Part shown: positions 1,264-60,176 of the stretch, piece by piece
Numbering within the stretch: the first letter of the stretch is position 1
Layout of the letters: every line of letters starts with the position of its first letter
Assembly: GCF_036347135.1 (NCBI RefSeq)
Contig: NZ_CP108938.1
Coordinates: 10,788,001-10,852,000 of the forward strand
Source of the DNA: Streptomyces sp. NBC_00775
GTDB taxonomy: Bacteria; Actinomycetota; Actinomycetes; Streptomycetales; Streptomycetaceae
DNA length: 64,000 bases
Direction of reading: 5' to 3'
Made by a program: the position numbers and the translations under genes
The notes under the pieces: generated by a model
What the model was told of the DNA's origin: nothing
The model's database searches: none
What the model saw: the letters and a program-made list of their open reading frames with translations, nothing else

Positions 1264-1899
1264 TCACTCCGACACGACCGGGGGCAGCGGTTCGCGGGCG
1301 GCGTGCCAGGCAGGGGGAAGGGCGGTGACGCCCGTTCGGGCGGCGATCACCCCGCCCGCGATGGCGCAGGTGGTGTCGATGTCGCCGCGTCCGGCGACCG
1401 TGAACCACAGGCCCTCGTGCAGGTCGTCGAGGTGACTCGCCGCGCACCACAGGGCGTACGGGACGGTGTCGGGCCCGGACATCCGGTAGCCGGAGCCCAG
1501 GATCTCCGCGGCGTGCCGGACCGAGGTGCGCTCCGACATCCGGGCCGCGACCCGCACTCCCGACCGGACGTCGCTGTCGGGGAGGCGTTCGGCGACGGCG
1601 TGGAGGAAGTCCGGGCGGGCCGGAGCGGGCTCGCCCCGGCCACGGGTTGCCAGGGCGGCGGCAAGGGCGACGGCCACCGCCGCGGCCACCGCCTCCGGGT
1701 GGTGGTGCGAGACCACGCCCTGGCGGGCGGCCTGCTCGGCGGCCGCGTCGAGGTCGGCGGCGTGCCAGGCGCCGAGCGGCGCGGTGCGCATCGCTGCACC
1801 GTTACCCCAGGAGCCCTGGCCGCCGAACTGCCCAGCGACCACCTCCCGCCAGGGCTCGCCCGCGCCGATCCGGCGGAGTACGTCGTGCATCGAGGCTCC
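1264..1899 (-). pseudogene. ADP-ribosylglycohydrolase, C-terminal half
   Basis: This is the C-terminal half of an ADP-ribosylglycohydrolase (DraG-like), a family that removes ADP-ribose from proteins or nucleic acids. The visible motif GRGDIDTTCAIAGGVIAART matches the family's metal-binding DxDT block near the C-terminus. The N-terminal half lies at 3800-4075 on the same strand. Removing 1900-3799 rejoins the frame as HRGY-GASMHDVL with no residue lost. The gene is therefore interrupted by the IS200/IS605 element. The internal ATG at 1890 is probably not a real start. Confidence 0.8.
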
Positions 1900-2045
1900 T
1901 TGACTTGCTCCTCGGGCTGAAGCCCGAGGATTCTGGCCTTCTCGTCCGTTGCTGTGCCGCTACGCGGCACGGGGTTCGGGAGAGAATCCTTGGCTTCCTG
2001 TTTCGTCGCGCTGTGCCAGGACGAGTCCTGGTCTGACCTGCGCTC
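1900..2045 (-). ncRNA. Predicted omega/reRNA of TnpB copy 1
   Basis: TnpB nucleases use a guide RNA made from the 3' end of tnpB and the element right end, with the guide read from flanking DNA. This is family knowledge. Here the segment includes the tnpB 3' end and the CTCGGGC hairpin and finishes in AAGTCAA. The predicted guide would begin GGAGCCTCGATGCACG, inside the interrupted ADP-ribosylglycohydrolase gene. The 5' boundary is a guess. Confidence 0.45.
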
Positions 2046-3195: not shown

Positions 3196-3229
3196 GACCG
3201 TCACGCTAGACACTTGGGTTACCGGCGGC

Positions 3230-4839: not shown

Positions 4840-7800
4840 CTAGCCGCAGGTCAGGGTCGGCATCGCCCAGTCACCGTGGTCGTTGCCGTTGCCGTCTCCG
4901 GCGTCACCGACCTTGAGGTCGACCACTTGGGCGCCGCTGACGTCGACGTCGATGGGTACCGCGGCCTGTTTGCCGCGGATCGTCGGCGTGGTCACCAAGG
5001 TCTTGCCGTCGGCGATCACGGAGAACGTCACCGTTCCCGCACCACCCGTCTCGTCGTCGACACCGCCGTCCGCCGTCAACCGTGAGCAGTTTCCGGCGAG
5101 GTAGAGCTCGACGTCGCTGACCGAGTTGGTGCCCAGGCCCTTGGCGTAACCGACACCGGCGATACTGATCGGACGGCCGTCCCCGGCCGCCTGCTCACCG
5201 ACGCTGCTGTCGCGCTCCACCGGGCCCCACCCGTTGGTGGACGACAAGAAGGGTAGGTCGCTCACGGCGCTCTTCCCGGTCGGCGGAGCCGGCGGGATCC
5301 CGCCGACGATGCGCTCGTCACCGCCGGTGGCCTGCCGTCCGTTCTGCAGGTAGTGGACTGTCGCGGTGAGTGCCGAGGCGGACGGCAGCTTCCCCGTCGG
5401 CGGCTGGACCTTCCAGGTGAAGGTGGCCGACTGGCCGGGTTGCAGGCGCTCGACCGACGCGGGGCTCGCGGCGCTCACGTCCCAGCCGTCGGGCGCGGAG
5501 AGTGAGGCCGTCAGTCGGGAGGCGGACGGTCGGTCCTTCGGCACCCGCACCGTCGCCTCGGCTGTGAAGGCCTGTCCTGGCTGTGCGGTGTCCGGCACGT
5601 CCAGGGTGACGTCCGCTCCCGGCCGCTTGGGCATCGCGTACGTGTGGGCGTCGTAGCGGGGGCTGTCGTTCTGCGCGACGTGCAGGGACGAGGCGTAGCT
5701 GCCGTAGTTGGTGAGCGACACCTTGCCGAGGCCGCCGGTGCTGCCGTCCAGGTTCCATACGGCAATGGCGATGCTGTTGCGGCCGTTCGGGTTCAGGATC
5801 CCGTTCGGCACCGGGAACGTGTGCTGCGGCCCGAGGTAGTTGACGTAGTTGCCGACCTGCCAGCCGTTCACGAAGATCGTGGCCCGGTACTTGCGTGACG
5901 GGTCGTCGGTGAACGTCAGTCCGAGCGACGTGTCCTGGCCGTGCGGCAGATCCAGGGCGACGTCGGAGCGGTACCAGGAGACCCCGGGACGGGTGTCGGT
6001 CGTCGGAAGGGACGTCTTCTTCCACTTGCCGTCCGGGAAACCGGGCAGGGACCAGCCGGCCCGCTCGCCATACAGGCCGCCCGTCGAGAGCGGTCCGCGC
6101 ACCGTGTCCTGCAGGTCCTCGCCGCCGCGTACGCCCTGCAGCCGCCAGGTGACGGCGGTCAGCGGTGCCCCGGCGAGGGAGGCGCTGATCAGGCCGCGCG
6201 CGGTCTTGTTGCCGTTGGTCGAGTTGTAGTCCTCCTCGTGCCCCATGTTCACGGTGAGCACGGAAATGACGTTGTCACCCTTGGACTTGAGCGCATCGGC
6301 CGGGAAGGTGAAGTCGGCCCTGCCTGTGGTGGAGCTGCCCAGGAAGGTGCCGTTGAGCCAGGCGGAGAACGCCTGTGCCCCTCCGCCGGAGTCCGAGACC
6401 AGGCGGATGCCTGTCTCCTTGCCGGTGGCGTGGAAGCGGCCGCGGTACCACGTGTTGCCGGTGTGGAAGCCGTAGTCGTCCGCGTAGAGCACCGGCAGCG
6501 CGTTGACGCCGGAGACACTGTTGGTGGTCGTCTTGTCGGCCACCTGCCAGCTGGTGTCGTCGAAACCGGGGGCCGCTTCGGGCGACTCCTCGCTGTGCTT
6601 CCAGTTGGTGAGTGCCGGCAGGTGTATCGGGGCCGCCGTCGGGATCTTCCCGGTGAGGCTCCCCGTGCCGCCGGCCCGGGTGTCGACGGTCCGGCCGTTC
6701 CAGGTGATGTGGTCGGCGGAGGTGAACACCTCGATGTTCTTGTCGTCGGCGTTGTCGCCGGTGAGTGCCAAGGTGCGGTCGCCGTTCAGGCTGGTCGCCG
6801 TCCGCAGCAGGTGGCTGCCGCGCACGAGGACAGGGCCGGCCGCTGTGTCCTGACGCCAGAAGGTCTTGGCCGTGGCCTTGTCGCCGACGAGCAGTTCGAG
6901 CGGGCGCTGTCGGCCGCCGGTGATGCTGACGCGGATCAGGTCCTTGTGCGTGTAGTTCAGGCGCAGGTCGCCGGTGGCCGCGTCCCAGGTTGTCGTGACC
7001 GGGCCGCCGCTGGTGGTCACGGTGGGCTTGGAGGCGTAGCGCAGCACGGTCTCGCCGTCGCTGCCCGCATCGCCGTAGAGCACGGCGACGTCCCGGTCAC
7101 CGATGGTCGCGCTGGTCATGATCTCCGAGGTCGAGTACTGCAACTGCGAGTCGCCGAGCCGGTAGTTGGCCACGATCACGTGTGAGTCGCGTCCGTCGAG
7201 CGTGATCGCGGTGCCCGGCTGCTGGGGCACGACCGGGTAGGTCGGCTCTGCGGCGGCGGTACCCGTCGGCACGTCGATGGCGTCGATGGCCACGTAGTCG
7301 TCGGTGGAGCCCGAGCTGTGGCTGCCGTCCACGACGATCTTCAGGGTGTGCGCTCCGTCCGGCAGGCCGGTCTTCTGGAAGATCACCGCCTGGTTCTCGG
7401 CGCCGGAGTCGTCGACCGTCGCGACCTTGGTGCCGTCGAGGTAGACGTCGGCATTGCCGTGGTTGTTGGTCTTCGACCCGATCCAGCGGATCGCGGTGCC
7501 GTCGAAGGGGACGGTCACCGAGTCACCGGCCTTGTTGGAGAAGGACTCGGTGTGCTTGTAGTCGCCGCCGGTGTAGCTCTGGTCGGCCACGTGCGACCAC
7601 GAACCGGTGTACTGCAGCGCGGAGTCGGGGTCGTCCCAGGTGTAGGTGGTGTCCACGGCCGGTTGGGCGTTGAAGTCCAGCGCGATGTGGGTCTTGTCGA
7701 CCGCGGTGGACGTGGAGTTCCCGTGCCGCAGGACGTGGAACTGCGTCTTGCTGTCGGGGTTCATCCGGGCGGTGTCGACGACCGCGGAGTCGTCCGGCGG

Positions 7801-9027
7801 CGTGGCCCTGATCGACTCAGTCTTGGTCAGCGGGGCGAGGGACTGCGTGAAGTACCCGATCAGCTTGTCCTCGTAGTACTTCGGATCCAGCTGGCGGTTC
7901 TCGCGGATCGCGGCGCCGTAGTCGTACGACGTGTAGTTCTCCGGCATGCCCAGCCAGCCCCAGTTGGTGCCGCCGTACGTCATGTAGAAGCTCTGTGCGG
8001 TGGCGCCGACGGCTATGTTCTGCTTGTAGAACACGTTGGCGAACTGGTCGTTGATCAGCTCGGCGCACTTGTCGTAGCCCGGCCCGCCCCAGGGGTCGAA
8101 GGCACCGCCCTGGAACTCCGGCGAGTACAGCGGCTTGCCGGCGGGGTGGTCGTAGCTGATGTCCGGAACGCCGTTCCACTTCGAGGGGTTCGAGCAGTCG
8201 AAGCCCTGCGGGTAGGAGTCGGGGCCGTCGACGTCCAGGGCGCCGGTACCCGAGTTGAAGGTGCCGTTGTTGTTGCCGGTCAGCGGCACGGTGATGCCGT
8301 CGGCGCGGGCCTTGTCCTCCAGGTGCTTCATGTAGGAGTGGCCGGCGGCCGAGCCGTTGTAGTACTCGTTCTCGACCTGGTAGGCAATGACGGAGCCGGT
8401 CCCGTTGGTCAGTTGGTGACGGGCGATGATCCGGTCGATCTGGGTCAGCCATTCGTCCGCGTACTTCAGGAACCGCGGATCGTCACTGCGGTTGTTCCCC
8501 GCCTTGGTGGTCAGCCAGCCGGGCAGGCCGCCGCTGTCGACCTCCGCGTTGATGTACGGCGCCGGGCGGGCGATGACGTAGAGCCCGGCCTCCTCGGCCA
8601 TGTCGAGCAGCTTGTCGACGTCACGCACCCCGCTGAAGTCGTACACGCCCGGCTTCGGCGAGTGGTATCCCCAGTCGAAGTACAGCGACGTGGAGTTGAA
8701 GCCTGCGGCCTTCATCTTCTGGAAGATGTCGCGCCACAGGTCCGGGCTCGGGAGCCGGAAGTAGTGGAACTCGCCGGACCACAGGTAGGTGCGCCTGCCG
8801 TCGACGAGGAACGAGTAGCCGTCGAGACTCACCGTGTGTGCCCCCGCACTGGCGGCAGCCGCAGCGGCGGGTTGCTTCCCGCCGACGTCCTGCGCCGCGG
8901 CGGGCGCGGTCATGCCCGCGGCCAGGGCGATGGTCGCGGCCGTGGCGAGGATCACCCTCCACCACCGACGGCGGCCGGGTCTCGCAGCTTCTGAACCGAT
9001 CCGTTTACTCCGCACTGCGGCCTCCAT
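4840..9027 (-). CDS. Secreted GH35 beta-galactosidase, multidomain
   Basis: The 1395-residue exported enzyme is expected to release terminal beta-galactose from oligo- or polysaccharides outside the cell. The start MEAAVRSKRIGSE is followed by a basic stretch, a hydrophobic segment and APAAAQD (cleavage near 46). The GH35 barrel starts about residue 65. The acid/base Glu lies in YQVENEYYNG (about 221) and the nucleophile in YSPEFQGGAFDPWGG (about 304). Beta-sandwich domains follow. A NEW3-like segment (about 1150-1250) comes next, and a C-terminal NPCBM-type carbohydrate-binding domain ends GDWAMPTLTCG. It stands alone with no transporter beside it. The ATG at 9027 is preferred to the longer frame at 9087. 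Confidence 0.9.
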   Translation of the reverse strand: MEAAVRSKRIGSEAARPGRRRWWRVILATAATIALAAGMTAPAAAQDVGGKQPAAAAAASAGAHTVSLDGYSFLVDGRRTYLWSGEFHYFRLPSPDLWRDIFQKMKAAGFNSTSLYFDWGYHSPKPGVYDFSGVRDVDKLLDMAEEAGLYVIARPAPYINAEVDSGGLPGWLTTKAGNNRSDDPRFLKYADEWLTQIDRIIARHQLTNGTGSVIAYQVENEYYNGSAAGHSYMKHLEDKARADGITVPLTGNNNGTFNSGTGALDVDGPDSYPQGFDCSNPSKWNGVPDISYDHPAGKPLYSPEFQGGAFDPWGGPGYDKCAELINDQFANVFYKQNIAVGATAQSFYMTYGGTNWGWLGMPENYTSYDYGAAIRENRQLDPKYYEDKLIGYFTQSLAPLTKTESIRATPPDDSAVVDTARMNPDSKTQFHVLRHGNSTSTAVDKTHIALDFNAQPAVDTTYTWDDPDSALQYTGSWSHVADQSYTGGDYKHTESFSNKAGDSVTVPFDGTAIRWIGSKTNNHGNADVYLDGTKVATVDDSGAENQAVIFQKTGLPDGAHTLKIVVDGSHSSGSTDDYVAIDAIDVPTGTAAAEPTYPVVPQQPGTAITLDGRDSHVIVANYRLGDSQLQYSTSEIMTSATIGDRDVAVLYGDAGSDGETVLRYASKPTVTTSGGPVTTTWDAATGDLRLNYTHKDLIRVSITGGRQRPLELLVGDKATAKTFWRQDTAAGPVLVRGSHLLRTATSLNGDRTLALTGDNADDKNIEVFTSADHITWNGRTVDTRAGGTGSLTGKIPTAAPIHLPALTNWKHSEESPEAAPGFDDTSWQVADKTTTNSVSGVNALPVLYADDYGFHTGNTWYRGRFHATGKETGIRLVSDSGGGAQAFSAWLNGTFLGSSTTGRADFTFPADALKSKGDNVISVLTVNMGHEEDYNSTNGNKTARGLISASLAGAPLTAVTWRLQGVRGGEDLQDTVRGPLSTGGLYGERAGWSLPGFPDGKWKKTSLPTTDTRPGVSWYRSDVALDLPHGQDTSLGLTFTDDPSRKYRATIFVNGWQVGNYVNYLGPQHTFPVPNGILNPNGRNSIAIAVWNLDGSTGGLGKVSLTNYGSYASSLHVAQNDSPRYDAHTYAMPKRPGADVTLDVPDTAQPGQAFTAEATVRVPKDRPSASRLTASLSAPDGWDVSAASPASVERLQPGQSATFTWKVQPPTGKLPSASALTATVHYLQNGRQATGGDERIVGGIPPAPPTGKSAVSDLPFLSSTNGWGPVERDSSVGEQAAGDGRPISIAGVGYAKGLGTNSVSDVELYLAGNCSRLTADGGVDDETGGAGTVTFSVIADGKTLVTTPTIRGKQAAVPIDVDVSGAQVVDLKVGDAGDGNGNDHGDWAMPTLTCG

Positions 9028-30001: not shown

Positions 30002-31225
30002 ATGCAGCTTCGGTACGGCTTTCGCCTGTACTCGGATTCCGGCCAACGCGCCGCGCTGGCAAGGGCGTTCGGGTGCGCCCGCGTCGTGTTCAACGACGCC
30101 GTGCGCGCCCGCGAACACGCCCGCACAGCGGGCGAGGCCTTCCCGGCGGCCGGTGTGCTGTCGAAGAGGCTGGTCACCGAGGCGAAACGGACCGAGGCCC
30201 GCTCCTGGCTGGGCGAGGTCTCCGCCGTCGTGCTCCAGCAGGCGCTGCGCGACGCGGAGGCCGCCTACAAGAACTTCTTCGCCTCCCTCAAGGGCCAGCG
30301 GCAGGGCGCGAAGATGGGTGCGCCCCGCTTCAAGTCCCGCAAGGACAACCGGCAGTCGATCCGCTTCACGGCCAACGCCCGCTGGTCGATCACCGATTCC
30401 GGGCAGCTGAACCTGCCCAAGGTCGGGGCGGTGAAGGTGAAGTGGTCACGGACTCTGCCCACCCAGCCCTCCTCGGTCACCGTGATCAAGGACGCGGCCG
30501 GACGGTACTTCGCCCCGTTCGTCATCGACACCGACCCGGCCGCCGACGCCGCCCGGATGCCCGAGTCCGACCAGGCCATCGGCATCGACCTGGGGCTCAC
30601 CCACTTCGCGGTCCTGTCCGACGGCACGAAGATCGACTCCCCGCGGTTCCTGCGCCGCGCGGAGAAGAAGCTCAAAAGAGCGCAGCGGGAGTTGTCCCGC
30701 AAGCAGAAAGGCAGCAAGAACCGCGAGAAGGCCCGCCTCAAGGTCGCCCGCGCCCACGCGAAGGTGACCGACGCGCGCAAAGAATTCCACCACCAGCTCT
30801 CCACCCAGCTGATCCGCGACAACCAAGCGATCGGTGTGGAAGACCTGGCGGTCAAAGGACTCGCGCGCACCAGACTGGCCAAGAGTGTGCACGATGCGGG
30901 CTGGGCGCAGTTCGTGGCCATGCTGGATTACAAAGCGGTCAGGTACGGCCGGACCCTGGTCAAGATCGGCCGGTTCGAGCCCACCAGCCAGGTCTGCTCG
31001 GAGTGCGGGGTCAAGGACGGCCCCAAGCCCCTGCACATCGGGTCATGGACCTGTGCCGCGTGCGGTGCGGTCCATGACCGGGACCACAACGCCGCGAAGA
31101 ACGTGAAAACGGCCGCCGGACTGGCGGTTGCAGCCTGTGGAGCGCAGGTAAGACCAGGACTCGTCCTGGCACAGCGCGAAGAAACAGGAAGCCACGGATT
31201 CTCTCCCGAACCCCGTGCCGCGTAG
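30002..31225 (+). CDS. tnpB: TnpB, RNA-guided endonuclease, copy 2
   Basis: The 407-residue protein is closely similar to copy 1 (MQLRYGFRLYSDSGQRAALA). All three RuvC acids are kept (IGIDLGLTHF, GVEDLAVKGL, DRDHNAAKN) with zinc-ribbon cysteines (VCSEC, TCAAC). It lacks a small DPHADPHT-type insertion found in copy 1. The native promoter region is displaced by the IS630 unit, which ends only 13 nt before the ATG; transcription may start from IS630 sequence or not at all. Confidence 0.9.
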   Translation: MQLRYGFRLYSDSGQRAALARAFGCARVVFNDAVRAREHARTAGEAFPAAGVLSKRLVTEAKRTEARSWLGEVSAVVLQQALRDAEAAYKNFFASLKGQRQGAKMGAPRFKSRKDNRQSIRFTANARWSITDSGQLNLPKVGAVKVKWSRTLPTQPSSVTVIKDAAGRYFAPFVIDTDPAADAARMPESDQAIGIDLGLTHFAVLSDGTKIDSPRFLRRAEKKLKRAQRELSRKQKGSKNREKARLKVARAHAKVTDARKEFHHQLSTQLIRDNQAIGVEDLAVKGLARTRLAKSVHDAGWAQFVAMLDYKAVRYGRTLVKIGRFEPTSQVCSECGVKDGPKPLHIGSWTCAACGAVHDRDHNAAKNVKTAAGLAVAACGAQVRPGLVLAQREETGSHGFSPEPRAA

Positions 31226-32593: not shown

Positions 32594-33879
32594 TCACGTT
32601 TCCGGATGTACCCGACGGGCGAGCAGGCGGGCATCATGCTCGATCACCGCGCGCACGCCCGGTACGTGTGGAACCTCGCCGTGGAGCAGCATTCGCACTG
32701 GTACCGGGGCCGCAGGGCCGCGCCCGGCTTCGCGGAGCAGTGCCGCCAGCTCACCGAGGCCCGGCGTGACAACGAATGGCTGCGTGCGGGTAATGCTGAT
32801 GTGCAGCAGCAGGCCCTGAAGGACTTCGCCCAGGCCAAGAACGCCCGCTTCACCTCCGGCTTCGGTGAGCCGACGTGGCGCAGGAAGTACGTGCACGAGG
32901 GATTCCGGGTCATCGGCACCGACCGGGTTGGGGAGTTCGAGGTGGACGGGTCGCCGAAGCTGAACCCGAAGACGGGCAAGCAGGTCATGGGCCGCTCGGT
33001 AGTCGTGCAGAAGCTGAACCGGCGGTGGGCTCAGGTCAGGGTGCCCGGCTGTGGGTGGGTGCGCTTCAGGCTCACCCGCGCCGGGCTGCCGAAGGCGAAG
33101 ACGTTCCGCGTCACCTTCCGAGGCGGTCAGTGGCACATTGCGTTCGCCGTCATCCCCGAGCCGATCGATGCCCCGGGCGCAGGCGAGATCATCGGTATCG
33201 ACCGGGGCGTGAAGATCACTGCCGCTCTGTCGGACGGGCGGAAGCTGAACTGCCCGCAGCTCACGGTCAAGGAGCGGGCCCGGATCCGCAAGCACGAGCG
33301 GCGGGCAGCTCGCGCGCCGAAGGGCAGCGAGCGGAAACGGCCGAGTACGTCAAGGTTGCCAAGCTCAAGGCACGCGAAGCTGACCGGCGCAAGGACTGGT
33401 GCGAGAAGACCAGCACCATGCTCGCCCGCACCTATGACCTGGTGCGCTTCGAGAAGCTGAACATCAAGAACATGACCGCCTCCGCGAAGGGGACGGTCGA
33501 GAAGCCCGGCAAGAACGTCAGGCAGAAGGCCGGGCTGAACCGGGCGATCCTCGCCCAGGGCTGGGGCCTGCTCCGGCAACGCACGGAGCACAAAGCCCCT
33601 GGCCGGGTCGAGGACGTACCCGCCCCCTATACGAGTCTGCGGTGCAGCGCCTGCGGATGGATCGAGAAGAACTCGCGCAAGAGCCAAGCCGAGTTCGTCT
33701 GCGTGTCCTGCGGGTTCACCTGCAACGCGGACACCAACGCAGCAGTCAACGTCGCGGCAGGACAGGGCGGGATTCCCCGCCCCCGGCGCTCAGCCGGTGC
33801 CGGAGGGATGACAGCGGCCACCAGCCGTTCGAGCGTCCGTGAACCTCAACCCGCCTGGGTTGGAATCCCCCTCTTTTAA
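32591..33879 (+). pseudogene. tnpB: TnpB of a different subgroup, one frameshift
   Basis: It starts MSRFRMYPTGEQAGIMLDHR. The RuvC-I acid lies in IIGIDRGVKITAAL. The frame breaks near 33340 (KGSERKR then, in another frame, AEYVKVAKLKAREADRRKDW). The second part has RFEKLNIKNM, a zinc ribbon (RCSACGW, CVSCGF) and NADTNAAVNVA. One indel separates it from a complete protein of about 420 residues. It is clearly divergent from copies 1 and 2. Confidence 0.8.
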
Positions 33880-48969: not shown

Positions 48970-51453
48970 TTAATCTCCCAACAGGTGCGCCGCTCTCAGC
49001 TTGGCAAGAAGTGCGTTGAAATCCTCCTTCAGTTTGGCAAAGTCCGTCGCGTTCGAGTCCAGCTGATCTGGCACGCGCCGTGGAATCGGTTCAATGTACT
49101 TTCTGTTTGCGGGAACATCCAAGTCATAGAGCGTCTCCCACACTAGGCAATTGTCCTCAGTCTCACCACCAACACTCTGACTCCAGGGCGGCTGCTGACT
49201 TTGAGGACCGGAGACGTTGAGGTGCGGGTCAAACGGGCCACCGGACTTGTACTCCTTCAGCCGATATATGAAACGATTGGCGGGCGTCGGCTTGACGGTT
49301 TGCCCTATGTGGTAGTGCGTGTTGGGAGCCCAGTCTTTACAAGACTTCGCTGACCTCCTTCCACACGCAGCCTTCACCGTCCACCCGATCTCGTCTGGGG
49401 CCGTTGGATCTCTGACGGCATTGACAAGGAGATCACCCGGGCGATAGAAGTTGCAGCTACCCACAGGATTATCGTAGGGGGTTCCGCCAGTCACAACACA
49501 GATTCGCCGCTCACTGTAGACCCAGTTTCCAATCCAAGCTTCCGGAAGCATCAGCGCGCCGGGAAACGGACCGTTTTCGTACGCGGTTTGATAGTACGTA
49601 TGGAAAGACCCATTACTCAGCAGGGACGTTTCAATCCTGCCCTTGATATCCGGGGGAGCTGTCTGGACTTGGGTACGGAAGAGGGAAGACCCATCGACGG
49701 TATTCAAATGACTGTCCAGCGGGACAGAATCAAAATCCTGAATGATCGTGGAATCCGAATTGTTTCCGAGGGTGTTGGACGTTATGACCATTGGGACGGC
49801 GCCGGTGCCCGGCTTCAGTTCACCCAAGCATAGCCAATTCACATCGCCATCTTCTGTCAGGCTCCCGGCCGTTTTCTTCCAATCAGGCTCACCACTCGGG
49901 TGGTCAGGACGAACAACCCCGCGAGTACGCCCGGCATTTTGCGCTTGATATAGATATCCTTGCGCTTTAGATCCTTCCCCGCCCGTCTTCAGCTCGTCCT
50001 TGTCGATGTCGATCCCACCGGAGACGATCCGATACAATTGCACTTTGGAAAAGTTATTTAGCACTTTCAGGGCAGAGGGTCCAGATCCTCCTCTGACGGC
50101 GCCATAGCCCCAGTACGTTGAGTCCGGGGTGATATCCATGTCCCCTCCGACTACAGCGATATTCCCTCCCTTGAATACCGCTGGCGCATCCCCTTCGGCG
50201 TAGCAGCCGACGTACACAGAGCGCGCGATTGAACTGTGTTCGGAGCTGATGTTTCGGTGTTTGTTTGCTGCGGTGCGACACGCAATAAAGGTGCAGCCCA
50301 AAAATGAATTATCATGAATTCCATCACGCCCATTACCGGAGGCATCAACACTCATGACCAGCATAGCATTGGTCTCCATGTTGCCCTCGCTGCCGATGTC
50401 GAGCCCATGTTGGCCATTATTATCGAGAACGCAATCACGTATCTGCGTGAGGCTGGCATCAACTTGCGGCGTAAAGAAAGGCACATCGCTTGCGTATATC
50501 GTTATTCCGTTACGCCTGAAGCCAGAAACCCCAATCGACGCGATCAATGAGCCGGGCGCCAGAACCCGTACGGCGTCCATCTGCGGGGCCTGATAAAAGG
50601 TTTTAGCAGATATCCCTTGGTCGGGGCACGACTCGAGGGTAAACTGACGAAGCTCGGCATAGTCCGCACGAGCACGAGAGGGCACTACAGCCGATCCGGA
50701 GGTGGTGGTCCAAGCACCCGTCAAGGCAATTGCGCAATAGACAGTCTCCCCTCCCACTGGACCGATACCGGTCGCCCTGGAGAGGTTGAAATCTGCCGGC
50801 TTCGGATCGTCGGTTTTACCTACGACATCTGCGAGTATGCGAGTATTTTGAGTGCCACTAAGGACACGCCCCCCAGCTCCCTCCAGAATGCAATGCTGCC
50901 TGACGACAAGAGGGCTGGTAATCCGATAGTCTCCTGGAGGAAGATAGACGACTTTTCCGTCGGACACCTGCTCCGTATCGAATCCCGTTTTGCATTCCAG
51001 CGCTTTGAATCGCGTTGCGCAGTCCAGGGCTGCTTGGAGTGGGCCCGTGTCGTTGGCCTTTCCGTCCCCTACCGCTCCAAAGTCGAGCACGTTCAGCCGC
51101 GTGTCGCGGCGGGGTCGGATTGTCACCATTCCCGAATTATCGCAGTCACCTATCCAGTTCGGAGCGCTCATGCACTTTGAATCCGAAGCGCGCACTATTC
51201 GTCCCGAGCTGTCGACGCCAACCGCGCCAGCCCGACCGGAGTCAAGGGGGACATTGAAAACGCCGCCTATTTGAACTGTAACGTTATGTCCAACATCCGC
51301 CCTTTCCAGAGCAACCCCAAAGAACGGACTGGTATGCAACTTTTCCTTCTCGACAGCAGGGGTGACGGTGGTCGGTGATCCGGTGGTGCGGACCACCTGG
51401 CCGCCGGCTGTAATGGCCTGTGCGGCTCGCATGGTGACGGTGACGATGTCCAT
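48970..51453 (-). CDS. Phage-like beta-helix protein (DUF2190-like + Pectate_lyase_3)
   Basis: The protein has 827 residues. Residues about 1-110 (QAITAGGQVVRTTGSPTTVT ... FGVALERADVGHNVTVQIGG) resemble DUF2190-type phage capsid-decoration domains. Residues about 115-500 start LNVLDFGAVGDGKANDTGPL, the entry of the Pectate_lyase_3 beta-helix, as in tailspikes. A unique region follows, and the C-terminus (DFAKLKEDFNALLAKLRAAH) is a helix like those ending phage fibre proteins. By eye its GC content is far below its neighbours'. No signal peptide, and no other phage gene adjoins it. The start has a weak ribosome site (agaag). Confidence 0.75.
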   Translation of the reverse strand: MDIVTVTMRAAQAITAGGQVVRTTGSPTTVTPAVEKEKLHTSPFFGVALERADVGHNVTVQIGGVFNVPLDSGRAGAVGVDSSGRIVRASDSKCMSAPNWIGDCDNSGMVTIRPRRDTRLNVLDFGAVGDGKANDTGPLQAALDCATRFKALECKTGFDTEQVSDGKVVYLPPGDYRITSPLVVRQHCILEGAGGRVLSGTQNTRILADVVGKTDDPKPADFNLSRATGIGPVGGETVYCAIALTGAWTTTSGSAVVPSRARADYAELRQFTLESCPDQGISAKTFYQAPQMDAVRVLAPGSLIASIGVSGFRRNGITIYASDVPFFTPQVDASLTQIRDCVLDNNGQHGLDIGSEGNMETNAMLVMSVDASGNGRDGIHDNSFLGCTFIACRTAANKHRNISSEHSSIARSVYVGCYAEGDAPAVFKGGNIAVVGGDMDITPDSTYWGYGAVRGGSGPSALKVLNNFSKVQLYRIVSGGIDIDKDELKTGGEGSKAQGYLYQAQNAGRTRGVVRPDHPSGEPDWKKTAGSLTEDGDVNWLCLGELKPGTGAVPMVITSNTLGNNSDSTIIQDFDSVPLDSHLNTVDGSSLFRTQVQTAPPDIKGRIETSLLSNGSFHTYYQTAYENGPFPGALMLPEAWIGNWVYSERRICVVTGGTPYDNPVGSCNFYRPGDLLVNAVRDPTAPDEIGWTVKAACGRRSAKSCKDWAPNTHYHIGQTVKPTPANRFIYRLKEYKSGGPFDPHLNVSGPQSQQPPWSQSVGGETEDNCLVWETLYDLDVPANRKYIEPIPRRVPDQLDSNATDFAKLKEDFNALLAKLRAAHLLGD

Positions 51454-53325: not shown

Positions 53326-56300
53326 CTACACCGTGCTCGGTGGTTCGGCGCGGTCGAACACCACGAGGTCCCAACCTGTGCCGACCACGATCTCCCCGCG
53401 CGGGCCGAGGCACAGCGCACCGCGGATCATGCCGGCGACATCGAGCGCGTCACGCTGCGTGCCGGTCCGCAGGTCCCAGAACCGCACCGACCCTCCGCTG
53501 TCGACGGTGAGCGCGGTGGGTACGCCGTCGAGTGCGCGGCAGTCGATCGCGGCAATCGGGTGCTCGTGCCCGGCGAGGGCGTGCAGGGCGGCACCGGTCG
53601 TCAGGTCCCACACTCGGACGTACGTGTCCTGGCCGCCGGTGACCGCCACGGGACGGCCGTCGACCGATCCGCATGCCACTGCTTCCACGGTGCCGTCGTG
53701 TCCCGTCAGCGCCGCGCGCCGGGTGCCCGTGGTCAGGTCCCACACCCACGCGGCTCCGTCGTAGCCGACCGAGACCGCGAGCGGCCGCCCGCCGACGACC
53801 GAGCACGCGACGCCGTTCACCGCGATCTCGTGTCCGGTGTGGATCTCGCGGCACACCTCGCCGGTGTCGAGCCACCAGACGAACAGCGAGTCGTGGTACG
53901 CCCCGGCGCTGACTGCCACGGGCCGTCCCGCCAGAGTCGTGCACGCGATCCCCCTCACCGGTCCCCGGTGACCGGTGAAGGTGGACGTCGGCGTCCCGCT
54001 GTCCAGGTCCCAGACCCTCACGGTCTCGTCGTCCCCGCCGGTGATCGCTACGGGCCGTCCGGCCACGACGGCGCACGCGGCAGCATAGACGGCGCTCGTG
54101 TGCCCGGTGAGGGTGACGCGGAGGCGCCCGGTGCCGAGTTCCCACACACGCACGACGTCGTCGTGCCCGGCGGTGACTGCCACGGCAACGCCGTCCACGA
54201 CCGCGGTCGCGACCGCGCCGATGTCCGAGGTGTGGCCGGCGGCGGGCAGGCGGGCGCGCACGGACGCGGTGAGGTCCCACACCCGCACCGTGCCGTCGAG
54301 CCCGGTACTCACCGCCACCGGCTGTCCGCTGTGGACGGTGCAGGTCACCGACGACACGAAGTGCTCGTGGCCGGCCATGACCGCGTGCGACTCGCCCGTG
54401 ACCAGGCCCCACACCCGGACTGTGCCGTCGATCCCGCCGGTGACCGCGACGGTCTCGCCGTCGATCACCGTGCAGTCCACCGAGGTCACCGTGTTCTCGT
54501 GACCGACGAGGGCAAGCACCTCCTCGGCGGTGTGAAGGTCCCACACCCGGGCACTGCCGTCGGTGCTGCCGGCCACCGCGACCGGACGCCCATGGAGGAC
54601 GGCGCAGGCCACCGCGCGGAACCTGTGACCGCCGAGGAAGTCGTCGGTGATCCTGCGTTGCGCGCCGGTGGCCAGGTCCACCACGAGGACGGCCGAGTGG
54701 CTCGCGACGACGGCCACCGGCCGGCCATCGAGGACCGTGCACGCCAGCGCGTCGACGAAACAGTCATAGGCGGCGACGCGAGTGCTGCTGCGGACGTCCC
54801 ACACCTCAAGCGCCGGTCCGCCCACCACCGCGACGGGACGGCCGTCGAGTTCGGCGCACGCGACCGCGTTCAGGTGGCGGCCGTGGCCGGTGGGCATGCT
54901 CCGCACCGCGCCCGTGGCCGGGTTCCACACCCGCAGCTCAGCGTCGCGGCCCGCGGTCACCACGAGCGGACGCCCGTCCACGAACGTGCACGCGACCGCG
55001 TCCACCGTGTCCGTGTGACCGGTGAGCGTGGCACGGACGGCCCCGGTGTCGAGGTCCCACAGCCGGACCACGCAGTCGTGGCCCGTGGTGACCGCGACGG
55101 GGCGACCGTCGAGGACGGTGCACGCGCTCGCCGTCACCGGCTTGTCGCCGCCGACGAGCGTCGCGCGGAGGGCGGGGCTGATCTGCTGCCCGGTCGCCCA
55201 GCGCGGGAACCACCGCAGGGGCGGCACGAGCGCCCGGTGCAGTTCGGTCGCGCCGAACCTCGCCGCGTCCGTGGCGAGCACCAGGCGGCGCCGCTGCGGC
55301 GGCAGGCGCCGGTGCACGCCCGAGGAGGCGCGGTAGACCGAGCGCACCAGGCGGGCGCCGGGCGTGGTGACGTGGTCGAGCGCGGGGAGCAGCTCGTCGG
55401 GTTCCGCGTGGGCCAGGTAGCCGGGGTCGGCGACGAGCTCGTCCAGCCGCCCGCACCGCGCGGCGTGGGTCGCGAGGTGCCGCAGCAGGTACGGGTGCGC
55501 TCGCGACCAGAGCCGCTCGCCGGTGTGGTCGAGCGGGACCCGCGACATCAGCACCTCGGTGAACGCGCCGTGCGCCGCGACGGCGTCGACGCCCTCGCGC
55601 AGGTGCTCGGCCAGCGCCTGGTGGTACAGGCGGTAGGCGGAGCGGTGCGCCTCGACCGCCTCGACGACGTACGAGCCGGCGTGGCGGCGCAGCCACAGCA
55701 GGTCGTCGTCGCCGTACCCCGTCCCGGCCAGCCGGGCGGCGAGTGGTGCCCAGATGTCCTCCCACGGCAGGCCCTGCCCCTCGGCGAACGCCAGCGGCCG
55801 CAACAGGTCGCACACGCGTTCGGCGTCGCCGCCGAGCCTGGTCACGAGGTCGTGGCGCATCGCCGGCCCGGGCAGTCGCGGCAGCGCCGCGCGCCACGCC
55901 GGGTCGCGCCAGTCGGGGATCGCTGTGTCCGCCGCGAGGGTACCGCTGGTGATGCGGGCGACCAGGAACGACGGGGTGGCGGCCGCCGCGACCGCCGCGG
56001 CCACGGCGGCGGTCGCGTGGGGTCGGTCCCGGTAGGGGCTCTCGGCCGCCGACTCCCGCAGGCAGCGCGCCGAGTACGCGGTCAGGGCGTCGAGGTCGGC
56101 GTAGCGGGACGCGTCGAGGTCGACGCTGTCGTCCCGCCGCAGCCCGAGGTCCGCCAGCAGGTGCGGCCGCGTGCCGACGAGCAGGCGCAGCCGGCCCGCC
56201 GCGTGGTCGGCCAGCGGCCGCAGCAGCCGCAGGACGAGGTCGTGCGGGTAGGCCGCCTCGTCGAGCGCGTCGATGAGGACGGTGACCGGCGTGGTCAGCG

Positions 56301-57489
56301 CGTCGAGCAGCGCACCCGGCGTCTCGGCGTGCACGCGGGCGCCGGCGGCGATCCCCCGCAGCACCTGGTCGGTGGTCAGGTTCTGCGCGTACACGGCGAC
56401 GTCGACCGCTCCGACGGCGGGGACGGCGTCCGGCGGCAGGCCGATCGTGTCGACGGGCACCATGGGCCGCCGGTCCGGGTGGGTCAGCGTCGAGACGAGG
56501 CCGAGGACCGCGGTCTTGCCGGACCCGGGCGCGGCGGTCACCGTGAGGAGCGGTCGCGCCGGGTCGGGCTCGGCGAGCCAGCGTGCGATGTCGCGCAGGG
56601 CGGCCACCCGCCCGGAGAACCACCACCCGTCCCCGCCCTTGGCCCGGACCAGCAGGGTGGCGCGGAACTCGCCGTCCCGCCGCCGCGCCTCGGCGTCCCA
56701 CTCGACGGCCTGCTGGATCGCGAGGTCCACGCCCGACGGGCGGGTGTCGCGGCGTGGGTTGGGCAGGAACGGCGGCACTTCGCCGGTGAGCCCGGCCATC
56801 GCCGAGCCGATCATCTGGAAGCGCGGCCGGGCGGGGTTGGCGTTCATCGCCTTGACCACTGTGTCCAGCGGCAGGGTGGGTGGCGCGTGGCCCGCGGTCG
56901 AGACGTCCACGACAGCGTCACCCAGCAGTTGCGGGAACGTGCCGACGCTGGCCTGTTCCACGGGCTGGGCGGAGGTGATGACCACGAGCCCTGTGCCGGC
57001 CTCGCCCGCCCAGTGCCGGGTCATCCTGGTAAGCGCTGCGGCCGTCAGCTCGTTGCCGCCCTGGCCGGAGTAGCAGGTGTCGAGCATCAGCAGCAGCCGC
57101 CGCACGGGGGTGTCGAGCAGCATTCGCCGGGCCAGTTCCACCGTGGGCAGGGCGTCGGCGACGTCGTCCGGGTCGGTGTCCGCGGTGAGCAGGACGTGGT
57201 CCTCGCTGCCCTCGAGCACCTCGCCGTGCGCCGCGACGTACACCGCGAGCACGTCGTCCGGCCGCCGGTCGGGGGCGCGGCAGAAGGCGCGGAGCCGGCT
57301 GGTGAGCTGCTCGCGGGTCGGGTCGAGGCCGAGGTCGTCGACGTGGGTGTAGCCGAGGGTGCCGGTGAACAGCTCGACGATCCGCTCCCGCGCGTGCACG
57401 AGGCCGGGCCGGTCCCACCGCGGCGCCTTCGCGTAGTGCGCCACCGCGGTCGCGATCAGGAACCGCCGGACCGGGTCGTCATGGTCCAC
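53326..57489 (-). CDS. Caspase-STAND-WD40 protein (1387 aa)
   Basis: Residues about 1-240 form a caspase-fold protease: His88 in VYVAAHGE, Cys139 in LLMLDTCYSGQGGNEL. About 285-760 is a STAND/NACHT-like ATPase: P-loop TAAPGSGKTAVLG (322-327), Walker B TVLIDALDEAA (about 403-412), then helical, winged-helix-like sequence. About 775-1387 holds 14 WD40 blades (consensus DGRPVAVTGG-D-TVRVWDL-TG), enough for two seven-bladed propellers. The start overlaps the alpha/beta hydrolase by 11 nt. Such sensor-ATPase-protease architectures act in conflict or cell-death pathways; the role here is inferred. Confidence 0.9.
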   Translation of the reverse strand: MDHDDPVRRFLIATAVAHYAKAPRWDRPGLVHARERIVELFTGTLGYTHVDDLGLDPTREQLTSRLRAFCRAPDRRPDDVLAVYVAAHGEVLEGSEDHVLLTADTDPDDVADALPTVELARRMLLDTPVRRLLLMLDTCYSGQGGNELTAAALTRMTRHWAGEAGTGLVVITSAQPVEQASVGTFPQLLGDAVVDVSTAGHAPPTLPLDTVVKAMNANPARPRFQMIGSAMAGLTGEVPPFLPNPRRDTRPSGVDLAIQQAVEWDAEARRRDGEFRATLLVRAKGGDGWWFSGRVAALRDIARWLAEPDPARPLLTVTAAPGSGKTAVLGLVSTLTHPDRRPMVPVDTIGLPPDAVPAVGAVDVAVYAQNLTTDQVLRGIAAGARVHAETPGALLDALTTPVTVLIDALDEAAYPHDLVLRLLRPLADHAAGRLRLLVGTRPHLLADLGLRRDDSVDLDASRYADLDALTAYSARCLRESAAESPYRDRPHATAAVAAAVAAAATPSFLVARITSGTLAADTAIPDWRDPAWRAALPRLPGPAMRHDLVTRLGGDAERVCDLLRPLAFAEGQGLPWEDIWAPLAARLAGTGYGDDDLLWLRRHAGSYVVEAVEAHRSAYRLYHQALAEHLREGVDAVAAHGAFTEVLMSRVPLDHTGERLWSRAHPYLLRHLATHAARCGRLDELVADPGYLAHAEPDELLPALDHVTTPGARLVRSVYRASSGVHRRLPPQRRRLVLATDAARFGATELHRALVPPLRWFPRWATGQQISPALRATLVGGDKPVTASACTVLDGRPVAVTTGHDCVVRLWDLDTGAVRATLTGHTDTVDAVACTFVDGRPLVVTAGRDAELRVWNPATGAVRSMPTGHGRHLNAVACAELDGRPVAVVGGPALEVWDVRSSTRVAAYDCFVDALACTVLDGRPVAVVASHSAVLVVDLATGAQRRITDDFLGGHRFRAVACAVLHGRPVAVAGSTDGSARVWDLHTAEEVLALVGHENTVTSVDCTVIDGETVAVTGGIDGTVRVWGLVTGESHAVMAGHEHFVSSVTCTVHSGQPVAVSTGLDGTVRVWDLTASVRARLPAAGHTSDIGAVATAVVDGVAVAVTAGHDDVVRVWELGTGRLRVTLTGHTSAVYAAACAVVAGRPVAITGGDDETVRVWDLDSGTPTSTFTGHRGPVRGIACTTLAGRPVAVSAGAYHDSLFVWWLDTGEVCREIHTGHEIAVNGVACSVVGGRPLAVSVGYDGAAWVWDLTTGTRRAALTGHDGTVEAVACGSVDGRPVAVTGGQDTYVRVWDLTTGAALHALAGHEHPIAAIDCRALDGVPTALTVDSGGSVRFWDLRTGTQRDALDVAGMIRGALCLGPRGEIVVGTGWDLVVFDRAEPPSTV

Positions 57490-58336
57490 CGAGCCCTCCG
57501 GCGATGGCGGCGCCGGTGAACCGGTCGGTCAGGTACGCGGCGGCGTCGTGCGCGTGGGAGCCGTTGTGCACGACGACGTTGCGCACCCGGTCGCCGAACC
57601 GGCAGCGGAGGTCCTTCTCCAGTGCGACCACGTCGCCGCGGTCCACGATGTTCGTCCACACCAGGTCGTCCGGGCCCGGCCAGGCCCCCAGCCTGTCGAC
57701 GGGCGCGGGTTCGAGCCGGTCGAAGATCAGGTTCCGGATCCCGAGCGGCGACCCGAGCGTCACCAGCGCCCTCACGCTGTGCGGCCGCGCGCACAACGCC
57801 TCGTACGCCACGAGCGTGCCCAGCGAGTGTGCGACCACCACCCGGGTGTCCGGCCCGATCAGCGCCGCCAGCCGGGACCGGGCCGCCGCCCGCAGCTCGG
57901 GATCGGTCAGGTAGCGGTGCACCTGCTTGAGGTCGAAGACCAGCGCGCGTGTCGCGATCCCGGCGAAGAACCCCGAGCGCGACAGCTGGCGCAGCGCCGC
58001 CTGCACGGATCCAGGCACGCGCGCCAGCGTGTCGGCGCCGGGTGGCGCCACCGCCGGATCGGCCTCGGCAGCCGCGCGCCACCACGCGAGGAGCTGCTCC
58101 TGCTCCCACCCCGGCTCGACGTCCTGGGGTCCGAGGAGGGGGTCGCCGACGGCCAGGGATTCACCGGGCGGGCGGAACAGGTCGCCGTAGAACGCCATGG
58201 CGCCGTCGCCGGCGGCCGCCTCGTCGCCACCCGCCCTGGTCAGGCCGTCCAGCAACGCAGGCCACCAGTCCCGCAGCAGCATGCGTTCCCCCAGCAGCTG
58301 CTTGCCCACTCCGTGCACGCAAACGACGCGAGCCAC
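57479..58336 (-). CDS. Alpha/beta hydrolase (PGAP1/lipase-like)
   Basis: The 285-residue protein starts MARVVCVHGVGKQLLGERML; the VHGVG oxyanion-side strand is followed by nucleophile elbow VVVAHSLGTLVAYEA (Ser171), acid candidate NIVDRGDVVA (Asp232 or 235) and His in GSHAHDAAAYL (His263). No signal peptide, so cytoplasmic. It overlaps the caspase-STAND-WD40 gene by 11 nt, indicating coupled expression. It may be the lipase-type effector or a partner of the sensor. Confidence 0.85.
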   Translation of the reverse strand: MARVVCVHGVGKQLLGERMLLRDWWPALLDGLTRAGGDEAAAGDGAMAFYGDLFRPPGESLAVGDPLLGPQDVEPGWEQEQLLAWWRAAAEADPAVAPPGADTLARVPGSVQAALRQLSRSGFFAGIATRALVFDLKQVHRYLTDPELRAAARSRLAALIGPDTRVVVAHSLGTLVAYEALCARPHSVRALVTLGSPLGIRNLIFDRLEPAPVDRLGAWPGPDDLVWTNIVDRGDVVALEKDLRCRFGDRVRNVVVHNGSHAHDAAAYLTDRFTGAAIAGGLGGP

Positions 58337-58798: not shown

Positions 58799-59362
58799 CT
58801 AGTGAACGGTCCACAGATCGCCGGTGAGCAGCTGGGGTTCGGTGATCTCGTCCAGGACCTTGTGGTGTTCGTCGGCGAGTTCAGCGACCTTGCGTACGTC
58901 CGCGGCGTCCAGCCCGACGCGGCTGACATCGTCCGCAATGGCGGACAGGGAGGCCAGCACGGCCTCGCTCCACGCGGCGTAGCCGGGTCCGGCGACGTGC
59001 CAGAAGCGCGGGTCGTATACGGCGTGGATGTCCTTCGCATCGTGCCGAGCCGGGCGAAGAAGCCCGGCCAGAGAGTGCGGGGGTAGTCGCCGAGACGGTC
59101 GGGGGCGGACGTGCCGTCGAGGTGGCTCTGCACCATCCAGTCCCGGCCGGTGATCTCCTGCGACCAGTCCGCGAACAGGACCCGCGGAACGAGGTCGGCG
59201 ATGGGGGAGAGGTAGGGGGACGGTGGCGTACTCGTTACGCATCAGCTCCCGCTCGGAGGCGAACTGCCGTTTTGGAGCGGGGGCGATACACAGGATGACC
59301 GGTCCGCCGAGGCCGTCCGCGGAGAGCCGGTAGGTGTGCGATCCCGCGATGACGGCCTTCAC
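58799..59362 (-). pseudogene. Aminoglycoside-phosphotransferase-like protein, frameshifted
   Basis: SHTYRLSADGLGGPVILCIA and FASERELMRNEYATVP lie in one frame; RDWMVQSHLDGTSAPDRLGD in a second; VYDPRFWHVAGPGYAAWSEA and ITEPQLLTGDLWTVH in the first. The last block leads to the family's HGDLxxxN catalytic loop, where the frame stops early. Two frame changes and truncation at both ends make it non-functional. Confidence 0.6.
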
Positions 59363-60142
59363 CGACCGCGAACGCGAACAGGCCGCGCACTACGACGAAT
59401 TCCATGCCGCCCGCGCCGCCAGCCCCCTCGTCTCCCGGCTGTACGCCCAGGCGATGGGCGACGCCTACCCGGCCGAGGTCGCCCCCAACAGCTCCTGCGA
59501 CTGGACGCTCCTGGGCGCCATGGTCGCCCGCCTGCAGCTGCGTCCCGGCCAGGTCCTGGCCGATATCGGCTGCGGCACCGGCGGCGTCGGCCTGTGGCTG
59601 GCCCGCGCCCTGAACGTGCAGCTCGTCGGCATCGACATCTCGACCACCGCCGTCCGGCTCGCCACCGAGCGTCAGGGCAACTTCGTCCCGGTCGACCGCG
59701 CCCGATTCAATGTCGGCAGCCTGGAGGCCACCGGACTGCCCGACGGGCACGTTCACGGCCTGGTGTGCGTCGACGCCCTCTTCAACGCCAGTGATCGCGT
59801 CGCGGCCCTCACGGAGTTCCACCGCGTCCTCGCTGCTGGCGGTCGCGCCGTCATGACCCGCGTCCTGCCCGTCGGTGTCCGCCACGCCATCGGATCACAG
59901 GCACGATCGGCGGGGTTCAAGTCGAGTTCATCGAGAGGCGGCGGGACGAACCGGAGCTGTGGCGCCGGGCATACCGGCTCTGGATCAGCCACGAAGCCGA
60001 CCTGCGCAGCGAGGTCGGTCACGACCAAACCGACAACATGCTGGCCGAGGCCCACCGCATGCTGCCCCGCCTCGATGCCCGCCGCGCCGTCGTCGTCACG
60101 CTGCGCCGTCCCGCACCGACCGCTCCCTCGGCCGCCGGTTAG
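59349..60142 (+). pseudogene. Class I SAM-dependent methyltransferase, one frameshift
   Basis: MTAFTDREREQAAHYDEFHA starts a protein with the SAM motif VLADIGCGTGGVGLWLA and VQLVGIDISTTAVRLATE, motif IV VHGLVCVDALFN. Near 59918 one base is missing (GF-K where GFQVEFIER is expected). The other frame continues RRRDEPELWRRAYRLWISHE to the TAG at 60142. A single base restores about 263 residues, so the mutation could be recent or a sequencing error. Confidence 0.75.
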
Positions 60143-60176
60143 GCTCGCCGGACACAATTGAAGGAGAAAGAGCAGG

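Follow-up and report, generated by a model that had tools for sequence, protein, structure and literature searches.

Bacteria possess gasdermin-protease operons, whose protease presumably activates a partner that damages membranes, and animals possess the apoptosome of Apaf-1 and caspase-9, in which a STAND NTPase core is joined to WD40 propellers. For the VMAP ternary conflict systems, the sections of Kaur et al. 2020 (PMC7159879) devoted to them describe an N-terminal caspase domain and state that an alpha/beta-hydrolase gene invariably lies next to the caspases linked to VMAP. An earlier note on the DNA studied here had held that such a pairing corresponds to no defence type that could be named, which does not stand, since the pair was thus already in print for VMAP systems. 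The EACC1-caspase systems, which the same paper calls prevalent in actinobacteria, consist of two genes, the 5' one encoding a membrane EACC1 protein and the second one a caspase with variable domains, STAND NTPases included. Metacaspase-NACHT-WD40 proteins are called widely distributed in Asplund-Samuelsson et al. 2012 (PMC3501461), whose passages on them do not mention an alpha/beta-hydrolase partner and refer in general terms to operon neighbours that include hydrolytic enzymes. As for fungal NLRs, the relevant parts of PMC9815663 place alpha/beta hydrolases (SesB-like effectors) among the four largest effector families, as N-terminal NLR domains, and describe allorecognition NLRs with hypervariable WD40 repeats, e.g., HET-E.

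The window, that is, the whole stretch of 64,000 nucleotides that was analysed, comes from the chromosome of Streptomyces sp. NBC_00775 (NZ_CP108938.1, positions 10,788,001 to 10,852,000), and carries on its minus strand two ORFs overlapping by 11 nt that encode a hydrolase and a caspase-STAND-14xWD40 protein. Residue counts below refer to the hydrolase alignment A2 (the window plus 78 of 80 loci, L144 and L167 being excluded for their odd length) and to the caspase-STAND alignment A3 (the window plus 55 of the 76 loci having the caspase frame).

57479..58336 (-), alpha/beta hydrolase gene, GTG start, 285 aa, lipase-like fold
57824..57826 (-), hydrolase nucleophile Ser171 (AHSLG), 79/79 in A2
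57632..57634 (-), hydrolase Asp235, candidate triad acid, 79/79 in A2
57548..57550 (-), hydrolase His263, candidate triad base, 78/79 in A2
57479..57489 (-), gene overlap of 11 nt, probably with translational coupling
53326..57489 (-), caspase-STAND-WD40 gene, GTG start, 1387 aa
56755..57468 (-), caspase (C14) domain, about residues 8-245 (Pfam, AF2 model, fold match, alignment)
57226..57228 (-), caspase His88, 56/56 in A3
57073..57075 (-), caspase Cys139, 56/56 in A3
56050..56733 (-), STAND NTPase core, about residues 253-480 (Pfam, AF2 model, fold match, alignment)
56512..56538 (-), P-loop, residues 318-326
56257..56283 (-), Walker B, residues 403-411
55180..56022 (-), winged-helix and helical arm region, about residues 490-770 (AF2 model and Apaf-1 match; domains named by analogy with Apaf-1)
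53329..55110 (-), 14 WD40 blades, residues 794-1387, probably two propellers

The architecture proposed in the earlier note was recovered in all its parts: both reading frames of the overlapping genes were verified, the AHSLG elbow falls on an invariant serine within a confident alpha/beta-hydrolase model, and the large protein has the caspase His/Cys dyad, the P-loop, the Walker B motif and the 14 blade motifs, the last of them partial (repeats of the relatives were split with an HMM). The caspase domain exceeds the Pfam cut-off (C14, E 4.3e-8), its model matches MALT1 and caspases in fold, and an Asp137 sits two residues before Cys139, from which a basic P1 preference would be predicted by analogy with MALT1 and metacaspases; by fold and dyad it belongs to the caspase (C14) class. 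The Pfam scores of the NTPase are weak (NPHP3_N at 1.1e-5, above the cut-off, and nSTAND1 at 0.013, below it); its residues G322, G324, K325, D407 and E411 are each found in 56/56 sequences of A3, and Apaf-1 is the best Foldseek match of the caspase-STAND model. The predicted caspase-STAND fold agrees with the caspase and NTPase assignments, and its likeness to Apaf-1 lends indirect support to the claim that the ATPase is a switch. With an N-terminal effector, Walker A and B, a winged-helix region and C-terminal repeats, the protein is of the STAND/NLR-like class (AP-ATPase or NACHT type).

Regarding the hydrolase, its Pfam matches are weak and both below the cut-off (Abhydrolase_1 at 1.2e-4, PGAP1 at 1.7e-3), and its model retrieves nothing from the PDB with Foldseek at E<=0.001, with low TM scores. 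The VIA list ranks many lipases and esterases within some one and a half Z units of each other, and neither it nor the Foldseek list excludes any family. Fold and Ser-Asp-His triad place it in the alpha/beta-hydrolase class, Asp232 (76/79 in A2) being an alternative triad acid, and it resembles lipases and esterases in fold; an activity on lipid esters is putative. The protein is presumably cytoplasmic, judging by a sequence that opens straight into the first strand.

Compared with the described systems, the Streptomyces pair has an N-terminal caspase domain and a neighbouring hydrolase gene in common with the VMAP systems; unlike in those, its switch and its sensor form one STAND-WD40 chain. 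Membership in the VMAP ternary systems, which are marked by VMAP-M and VMAP-C regions with adjacent MoxR and vWA genes, was rejected: neither of the two proteins, and none of eight ORFs scanned around them (44.1 to 63.7 kb), matched MoxR, vWA or VMAP. Two genes and a caspase fused to domains that can include STAND NTPases are also what the EACC1-caspase systems have, whereas the 5' gene is here a hydrolase, which has no match in NCBIfam; membership was likewise rejected, the caspase scoring 53 bits against the NF047832 cut-off of 140. The domain order is identical to that of the single-chain metacaspase-NACHT-WD40 proteins, and STAND with WD40, as well as the hydrolase as an effector type, are shared with the fungal NLRs; in these, the hydrolase is part of the NLR chain itself, while in Streptomyces it is a separate gene and the caspase is fused instead. 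With the apoptosome, the STAND core and the propellers are shared and the lipase-like partner gene is not, an apoptosome-like ring being here putative, on the likeness of the fold; the caspase domain is fused at what we take to be the place where Apaf-1 has its CARD. A protease and a partner share an operon as in the gasdermin systems, the partner being an alpha/beta hydrolase and no gasdermin. As far as our searches reach, what is new is the caspase-hydrolase pair on a stand-alone Apaf-1-like switch, on STAND-TPR and on other NTPases; no description of the STAND variant was found in open-licence PMC papers, and the source data of Kaur et al. may list it.

The hydrolase and caspase-STAND-WD40 genes are conserved together as an operon-like unit of two. 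When 297 genomes of the family, the window included, were surveyed from the caspase side, the hydrolase was seen to adjoin the caspase on the same strand at 40 of 49 caspase places, in either gene order (39/48 and 20/21 are the survey figures excluding the window's own genome). The refuting condition of the earlier note, a hydrolase gene that is not conserved beside the caspase gene in other genomes, did not hold. In each genome the scoring covered eight first-look candidates. The count used all 49 caspase matches and the best-scoring hydrolase matches, which reach E 4.6e-33 and omit one second fragment, so that pairing could only be under-counted. Chance adjacency was rejected, since matching genomes (6-12 Mb) have 1-4 hydrolase matches each and far less than one pair would be expected among the 49. 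That a housekeeping esterase merely lies next to a large repeat protein would fit the size of the hydrolase superfamily, the weak Pfam scores and those relatives that have no adjoining caspase; nonetheless, this is largely refuted by adjacency in both gene orders and across many genera, and is thought very improbable indeed.

Presence is patchy (45/297 genomes at E<=1e-10 in the same survey). The loci fetched with the hydrolase (L101-L180, the best 80 of at least 487 confirmed stretches) come from many genera, mostly actinomycetes such as Streptomyces, five being cyanobacterial; they are biased to pairing and to hydrolase identity, and the identity tables favour the hydrolase, which served to rank the loci. 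In relatives, the genes most frequently overlap by 4 or 11 nt (gene calls come from a home-made caller, with approximate starts and breaks). Across 65 loci, hydrolase distances correlate with those of the caspase (0.80), the NTPase (0.78) and the arm (0.77), and the partial distance correlation weakly favours hydrolase-caspase coupling, by a slight difference (0.40 vs 0.29). In a quick tree, the hydrolases of the cyanobacterial L161, L163, L171 and L179 group among the STAND-paired ones. The caspase tree leaves out eight duplicate records and L167, and the hydrolase tree uses a thinned set; each comes from a quick search, has long branches and is rooted at the midpoint.

Taken as a whole, the locus probably encodes a two-gene NLR-like conflict or allorecognition system, in which a one-chain apoptosome look-alike has a lipase-like partner and caspase and hydrolase make up an execution pair. 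The propellers would bind a foreign or non-self molecule, and NTP-driven oligomerisation would gather the caspases and thereby activate them. Caspase and hydrolase would then kill or halt the cell as a single execution pair, the damage falling most likely on lipids or acyl esters after the hydrolase has been released, cut or recruited. If this is true, bacteria run a one-protein apoptosome with a lipase-like executioner partner, and both the origin of the caspase-NLR link and the targets of bacterial caspases become testable with two genes.

How the two enzymes are connected admits several arrangements. That the caspase regulates the hydrolase is tentatively held to be the likelier one, given that the hydrolase accompanies the caspase when the switch is another. 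A search covering two flexible hydrolase loops gave Arg55 (77/79 in A2) as a candidate caspase cleavage site, or perhaps a structural residue, and position 106 is Lys or Arg in 50/79. Alternatively, the STAND oligomer could recruit both enzymes, the hydrolase being a direct co-effector and no caspase substrate. L137, from a Catenulispora MAG, keeps hydrolase and STAND-WD40 with no caspase at all, which means that the hydrolase need not act through the caspase, and the prominence of hydrolases among fungal NLR effectors in PMC9815663 points the same way; however, L137 is a single MAG contig, and the company that the hydrolase keeps with the caspase on VMAP proteins and on the NTPase of L108 makes this arrangement possible at best, and rather doubtful. 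An apparent 1343-aa hydrolase-STAND fusion in the same record as L137 (G050:C534, L063) was rejected, there being a stop codon between the two. The overlap of the genes and their frequent pairing would suit a toxin-and-control pair as well, with the hydrolase regulating or inhibiting the caspase or being its guarded target; against this, the triad is kept in nearly all of the 79 sequences, and among the nine of 49 caspase places that have no same-strand hydrolase, L215 and L216 look like intact caspase-STAND-WD40 genes, so that the hydrolase is not an obligatory inhibitor. Such a role is considered improbable. Extending the caspase-regulated arrangement, caspase and hydrolase might be a transferable "execution cassette", a caspase-activated lipase that is cut or released by the caspase and kills through lipid damage, placed in at least three NTP-driven switches (STAND-WD40, STAND-TPR and MoxR-vWA-VMAP) with a replaceable sensor array. 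This extension is speculative and rather unlikely, and if true, one protease-hydrolase pair would serve several unrelated molecular switches.

Two relatives from one gene neighbourhood have caspases that are 87% identical and WD40 arrays with a windowed identity of 28-66%, mostly out of register. They show that turnover can affect the WD40 array and leave caspase, NTPase and hydrolase in place, and a sensor that differs between close relatives with like enzymes is what one would expect if the system served immunity or self-recognition. The related alleles L107, L149, L125 and L172 likewise combine similar enzymes with different WD40 arrays. Together with the variable positions, which fall in line with the propellers as sensor, this turnover gives indirect support to the sensing role that had been claimed for them. 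Furthermore, since it is mainly the sensor that varies in this Streptomyces neighbourhood, its natural allele pairs could be used to find the ligands of WD40 NLRs. From sensor turnover and patchy presence we infer a possible anti-phage role. The same machine could instead exert self/non-self or developmental control of cell death in hyphae, as suggested by the likeness of the turnover to that of the fungal allorecognition NLRs in PMC9815663, by the predominance of actinomycetes, alongside the five cyanobacterial loci, among the best 80 of at least 487, and by the neighbourhood, where no known defence system was recognised beside the operon (33 window ORFs against PADLOC, 20 of them rechecked singly). 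Patchy presence fits defence equally well, however, and both roles can coexist; hyphal control is quite conceivable, somewhat short of an even chance, and its likelihood overlaps with that of the favoured conflict or allorecognition reading.

Searches of the surroundings complete the picture. No PADLOC family (2023 release) matched either protein at E<=0.1, the hydrolase had no match among 50,697 phage records (E<=1e-5), and Rfam gave no match at gathering scores. The phage result, like the lack of a recognised defence system beside the operon, weighs against the favoured reading. Among 72,556 plasmid records, 38 matched, seven of them over 80% or more of the query; several lie on very large replicons. 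The sole partial PADLOC match of the ten neighbouring ORFs is a methyltransferase (59349-60158, about 1 kb from the hydrolase), which matches the mad2 model over just 117/492 positions. Csa3, CARF3 and HEAT-ARM models were matched among the window ORFs at about 1e-6, and two imperfect inverted repeats (74-77%) between 46 and 64 kb were taken as chance. Cas12f-type and "Csx1" PADLOC models match the ORFs at 1963-3204, 30002-31222 and 32606-33457, which were taken for IS605 OrfB-type transposases rather than Cas12f or Csx1; the Pfam tally of the window contains two IS605 OrfB-type matches.

The gene pair under study is a conserved caspase-hydrolase unit set on an Apaf-1-like switch of the STAND type, and it is encoded by two overlapping genes on the minus strand of the window:

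58336..57479, minus strand, alpha/beta hydrolase, 285 aa
57489..53326, minus strand, caspase-STAND-WD40 protein, 1387 aa

The earlier note had read here a two-gene arrangement with an 11-nt overlap and 14 WD40 blades, and this is borne out by both frames, the Pfam domains and the blade motifs (14 placed, the last one partial). In the 1387-aa protein, Pfam matches the caspase domain at 4.3e-8, the NTPase families weakly and the WD40 families strongly. The host sequence is a single 11.1-Mb contig, with the window at 10788001-10852000, and the top hydrolase relative among the scored database candidates (95% identity) comes under the name Streptomyces mirabilis, which points to a Streptomyces host.

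The hydrolase-driven genome scan kept the best 80 of at least 487 loci, from Streptomyces (38), Nocardia, Saccharothrix, Kitasatospora, Amycolatopsis, Micromonospora and others, five being cyanobacterial; in this set, selected for the hydrolase, 74/80 loci have a same-strand caspase frame no more than 200 nt away, 76/80 have a caspase within 7 kb, and 70/80 have both caspase and NTPase. The caspase-driven test, which is less selected, found caspases (E<=1e-10) at 49 places, spread over 45 of the 297 family genomes (window included), and a same-strand hydrolase stands beside 40 of them, either upstream within 264 nt (30 places) or downstream, 3.4-4.7 kb beyond the caspase domain (10 places). 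At the stricter E<=1e-40, this rises to 21/22. The two genes are, then, a unit that other genomes conserve, as the earlier reading required of the hydrolase.

Among the nine caspase places with no same-strand hydrolase, L218 has a relative encoded on the other strand, L210, L211, L214 and L217 appear shortened or incomplete on approximate gene calls, one is divided into two overlapping genes (L212), one encodes a 1113-aa protein with no WD40 match (L213), and two appear intact yet have no hydrolase (L215, L216). Eight unpaired hydrolase loci were inspected (L219-L226): a divergent caspase adjoins in L223, L224 and L226, just a caspase or WD40 piece is nearby in L219, L220 and L222, and no caspase was seen in L221 and L225. 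The weaker hydrolase loci L227-L229 all adjoin caspases. Within the best 80 of at least 487 loci, no own caspase was found for the hydrolases of L123, L136, L143 and the second copy in L102, and the caspase of L174 lies 1.3 kb from its hydrolase in a shortened frame. L219 also carries a single frame (6902-8167) in which a hydrolase remnant runs into WD40 repeats, possibly a deletion scar. A separate hydrolase clade (L067, L068, L069, L070), whose neighbourhoods appear similar by gene lengths and gave no caspase match nearby, possibly has another function.

The pair persists through rearrangement. Over 110 hydrolase places, some of them records present twice, the hydrolase comes first in 72, the caspase in 17, and 21 are unpaired, the most frequent spacings being overlaps of 4 or 11 nt. 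In L226 (5910-10884) the unit is split into three genes with overlapping ends (WD40 protein, hydrolase and caspase-NTPase). A three-gene variant was also seen, in which the hydrolase is accompanied by a caspase-NTPase (1026-1074 aa) and by a third protein that extends past the end of the sequence covered and so measures at least 1366-1490 aa:

L223, 7701-16001, three-gene variant
L224, 7472-16000, three-gene variant
L227, 7868-15999, three-gene variant
L229, 1-8348, three-gene variant

In the two that were scanned (L223 and L229), the third protein has a weak P-loop NTPase match of its own.

To judge from the sequences, the hydrolase goes with the caspase onto different switches, the counter-case being L137 (1178-5173, a Catenulispora MAG), where hydrolase and STAND-WD40 protein occur with the caspase absent. 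In the cyanobacterial loci L163 and L171, domain scans place VMAP-M14 and VMAP-C (domains of vWA-MoxR-associated proteins) on the caspase protein, next to which L163 encodes an AAA ATPase; judged by gene order or sequence, L179 and L161 resemble these. In four Streptomyces loci (L077, L080, L099, L100) the hydrolase neighbour carries VMAP-M2; the caspase motifs GHG ... DTCH in it were spotted by eye and went unreported by Pfam C14. The neighbour in Lyngbya (L177) is a caspase-AAA-TPR protein. The caspases of L108 and L114 share 53% identity over the part ending at residue 243, and blastp aligns nothing beyond it, the L108 protein having a different AAA domain and no WD40 in Pfam, and their hydrolases are sisters in a quick tree. 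Cyanobacterial VMAP caspases cluster with STAND caspases in the quick trees, and so do their hydrolases; Streptomyces VMAP caspases stand apart, and so do theirs. These matching placements suggest that caspase and hydrolase moved together, a reading that is suggestive only because both trees have midpoint roots and long branches.

The sensor, as far as the alignments indicate, can turn over fast. Six Streptomyces loci (L107, L116, L122, L125, L149, L172) share a neighbourhood, with common flanking genes in all 14 pairs listed (of 15) and local inversions among the flanks. Within it, the L107 and L172 caspases are 87% identical, whereas their WD40 repeats average 45% on the best diagonal and 38% over all repeat pairs, with the best match in register for just 0.15 of repeats; identity in 50-residue windows runs at 74-94% across the first 650 residues and at 28-66% after. 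For L125 and L172, with caspases equally close, the repeats reach 75% and the register is fully kept. Over 421 protein pairs, 0.10-0.14 of repeats are in register at 45-65% caspase identity, and 0.38-0.67 above 65%. Repeat positions 35, 37, 11 and 43 are the most variable in 96 full-length repeats from 20 proteins picked from the window's clade; such positions probably lie on the ligand face of WD40 propellers.

Parts of this picture have precedents in the literature. The amplification and disruption of propellers has been published for STAND proteins regarded as part of bacterial innate immunity (PMC9218822), fungal NLRs have hypervariable WD40 sensors and alpha/beta-hydrolase effectors (PMC9815663), and bacterial conflict systems have sensors under targeted hypermutation (PMC10907252). 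In VMAP systems, Kaur et al. (2020) describe the caspase domain as always having an adjacent alpha/beta-hydrolase gene and suggest that the two work jointly (PMC7159879); the likeness to our pair is the caspase with its hydrolase neighbour, whereas the switch here is a stand-alone STAND-WD40 protein. A follow-up paper lists membrane-lipid alpha/beta-hydrolases among effectors fused to death-like domains (PMC8195603), and metacaspase-NACHT-WD40 chains have been published since 2012 (PMC3501461). Caspase-hydrolase pairing and such chains are thus known already; the stand-alone STAND-WD40 plus hydrolase operon is new as far as searched, no description being found in open-licence PMC papers, though the supplementary data to Kaur et al. 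could include it. The earlier interpretation (propellers sensing a ligand, an oligomerising ATPase, an activated caspase and the hydrolase as second effector or caspase substrate) is right in outline, and gains the conserved unit, the Apaf-1-like switch and a sensor able to turn over. We infer that the unit would kill the cell; it may act against phage rather than in self-recognition.

No defence island was found around the operon in 10 ORFs at 44.1-63.7 kb; none can be claimed because the sole nearby PADLOC match is a methyltransferase (59349-60158, plus strand, about 1 kb from the hydrolase; mad2 at 1.4e-18 over 117 of 492 model positions), taken for a shared methyltransferase domain, and the Cas12f-type matches sit on distant transposase-like ORFs, at least 20 kb from the operon:

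1963-3204, minus strand, Cas12f-type PADLOC match
30002-31222, plus strand, Cas12f-type PADLOC match
32606-33457, plus strand, Cas12f-type PADLOC match

The window does contain mobile elements, since its Pfam tally includes two IS605 OrfB-type transposases together with DDE and rve transposase families. An 827-aa ORF (48970-51453, minus strand) combines a pectate-lyase-like domain (Pfam 5.1e-13) with matches to phage cement (3.5e-6) and, weakly, to a head fibre, and around it, at 48-52 kb, GC dips to 59-61% against about 70% on either side. At 1264-1887 (minus strand) there is an ADP-ribosylglycohydrolase family match (3.1e-39).
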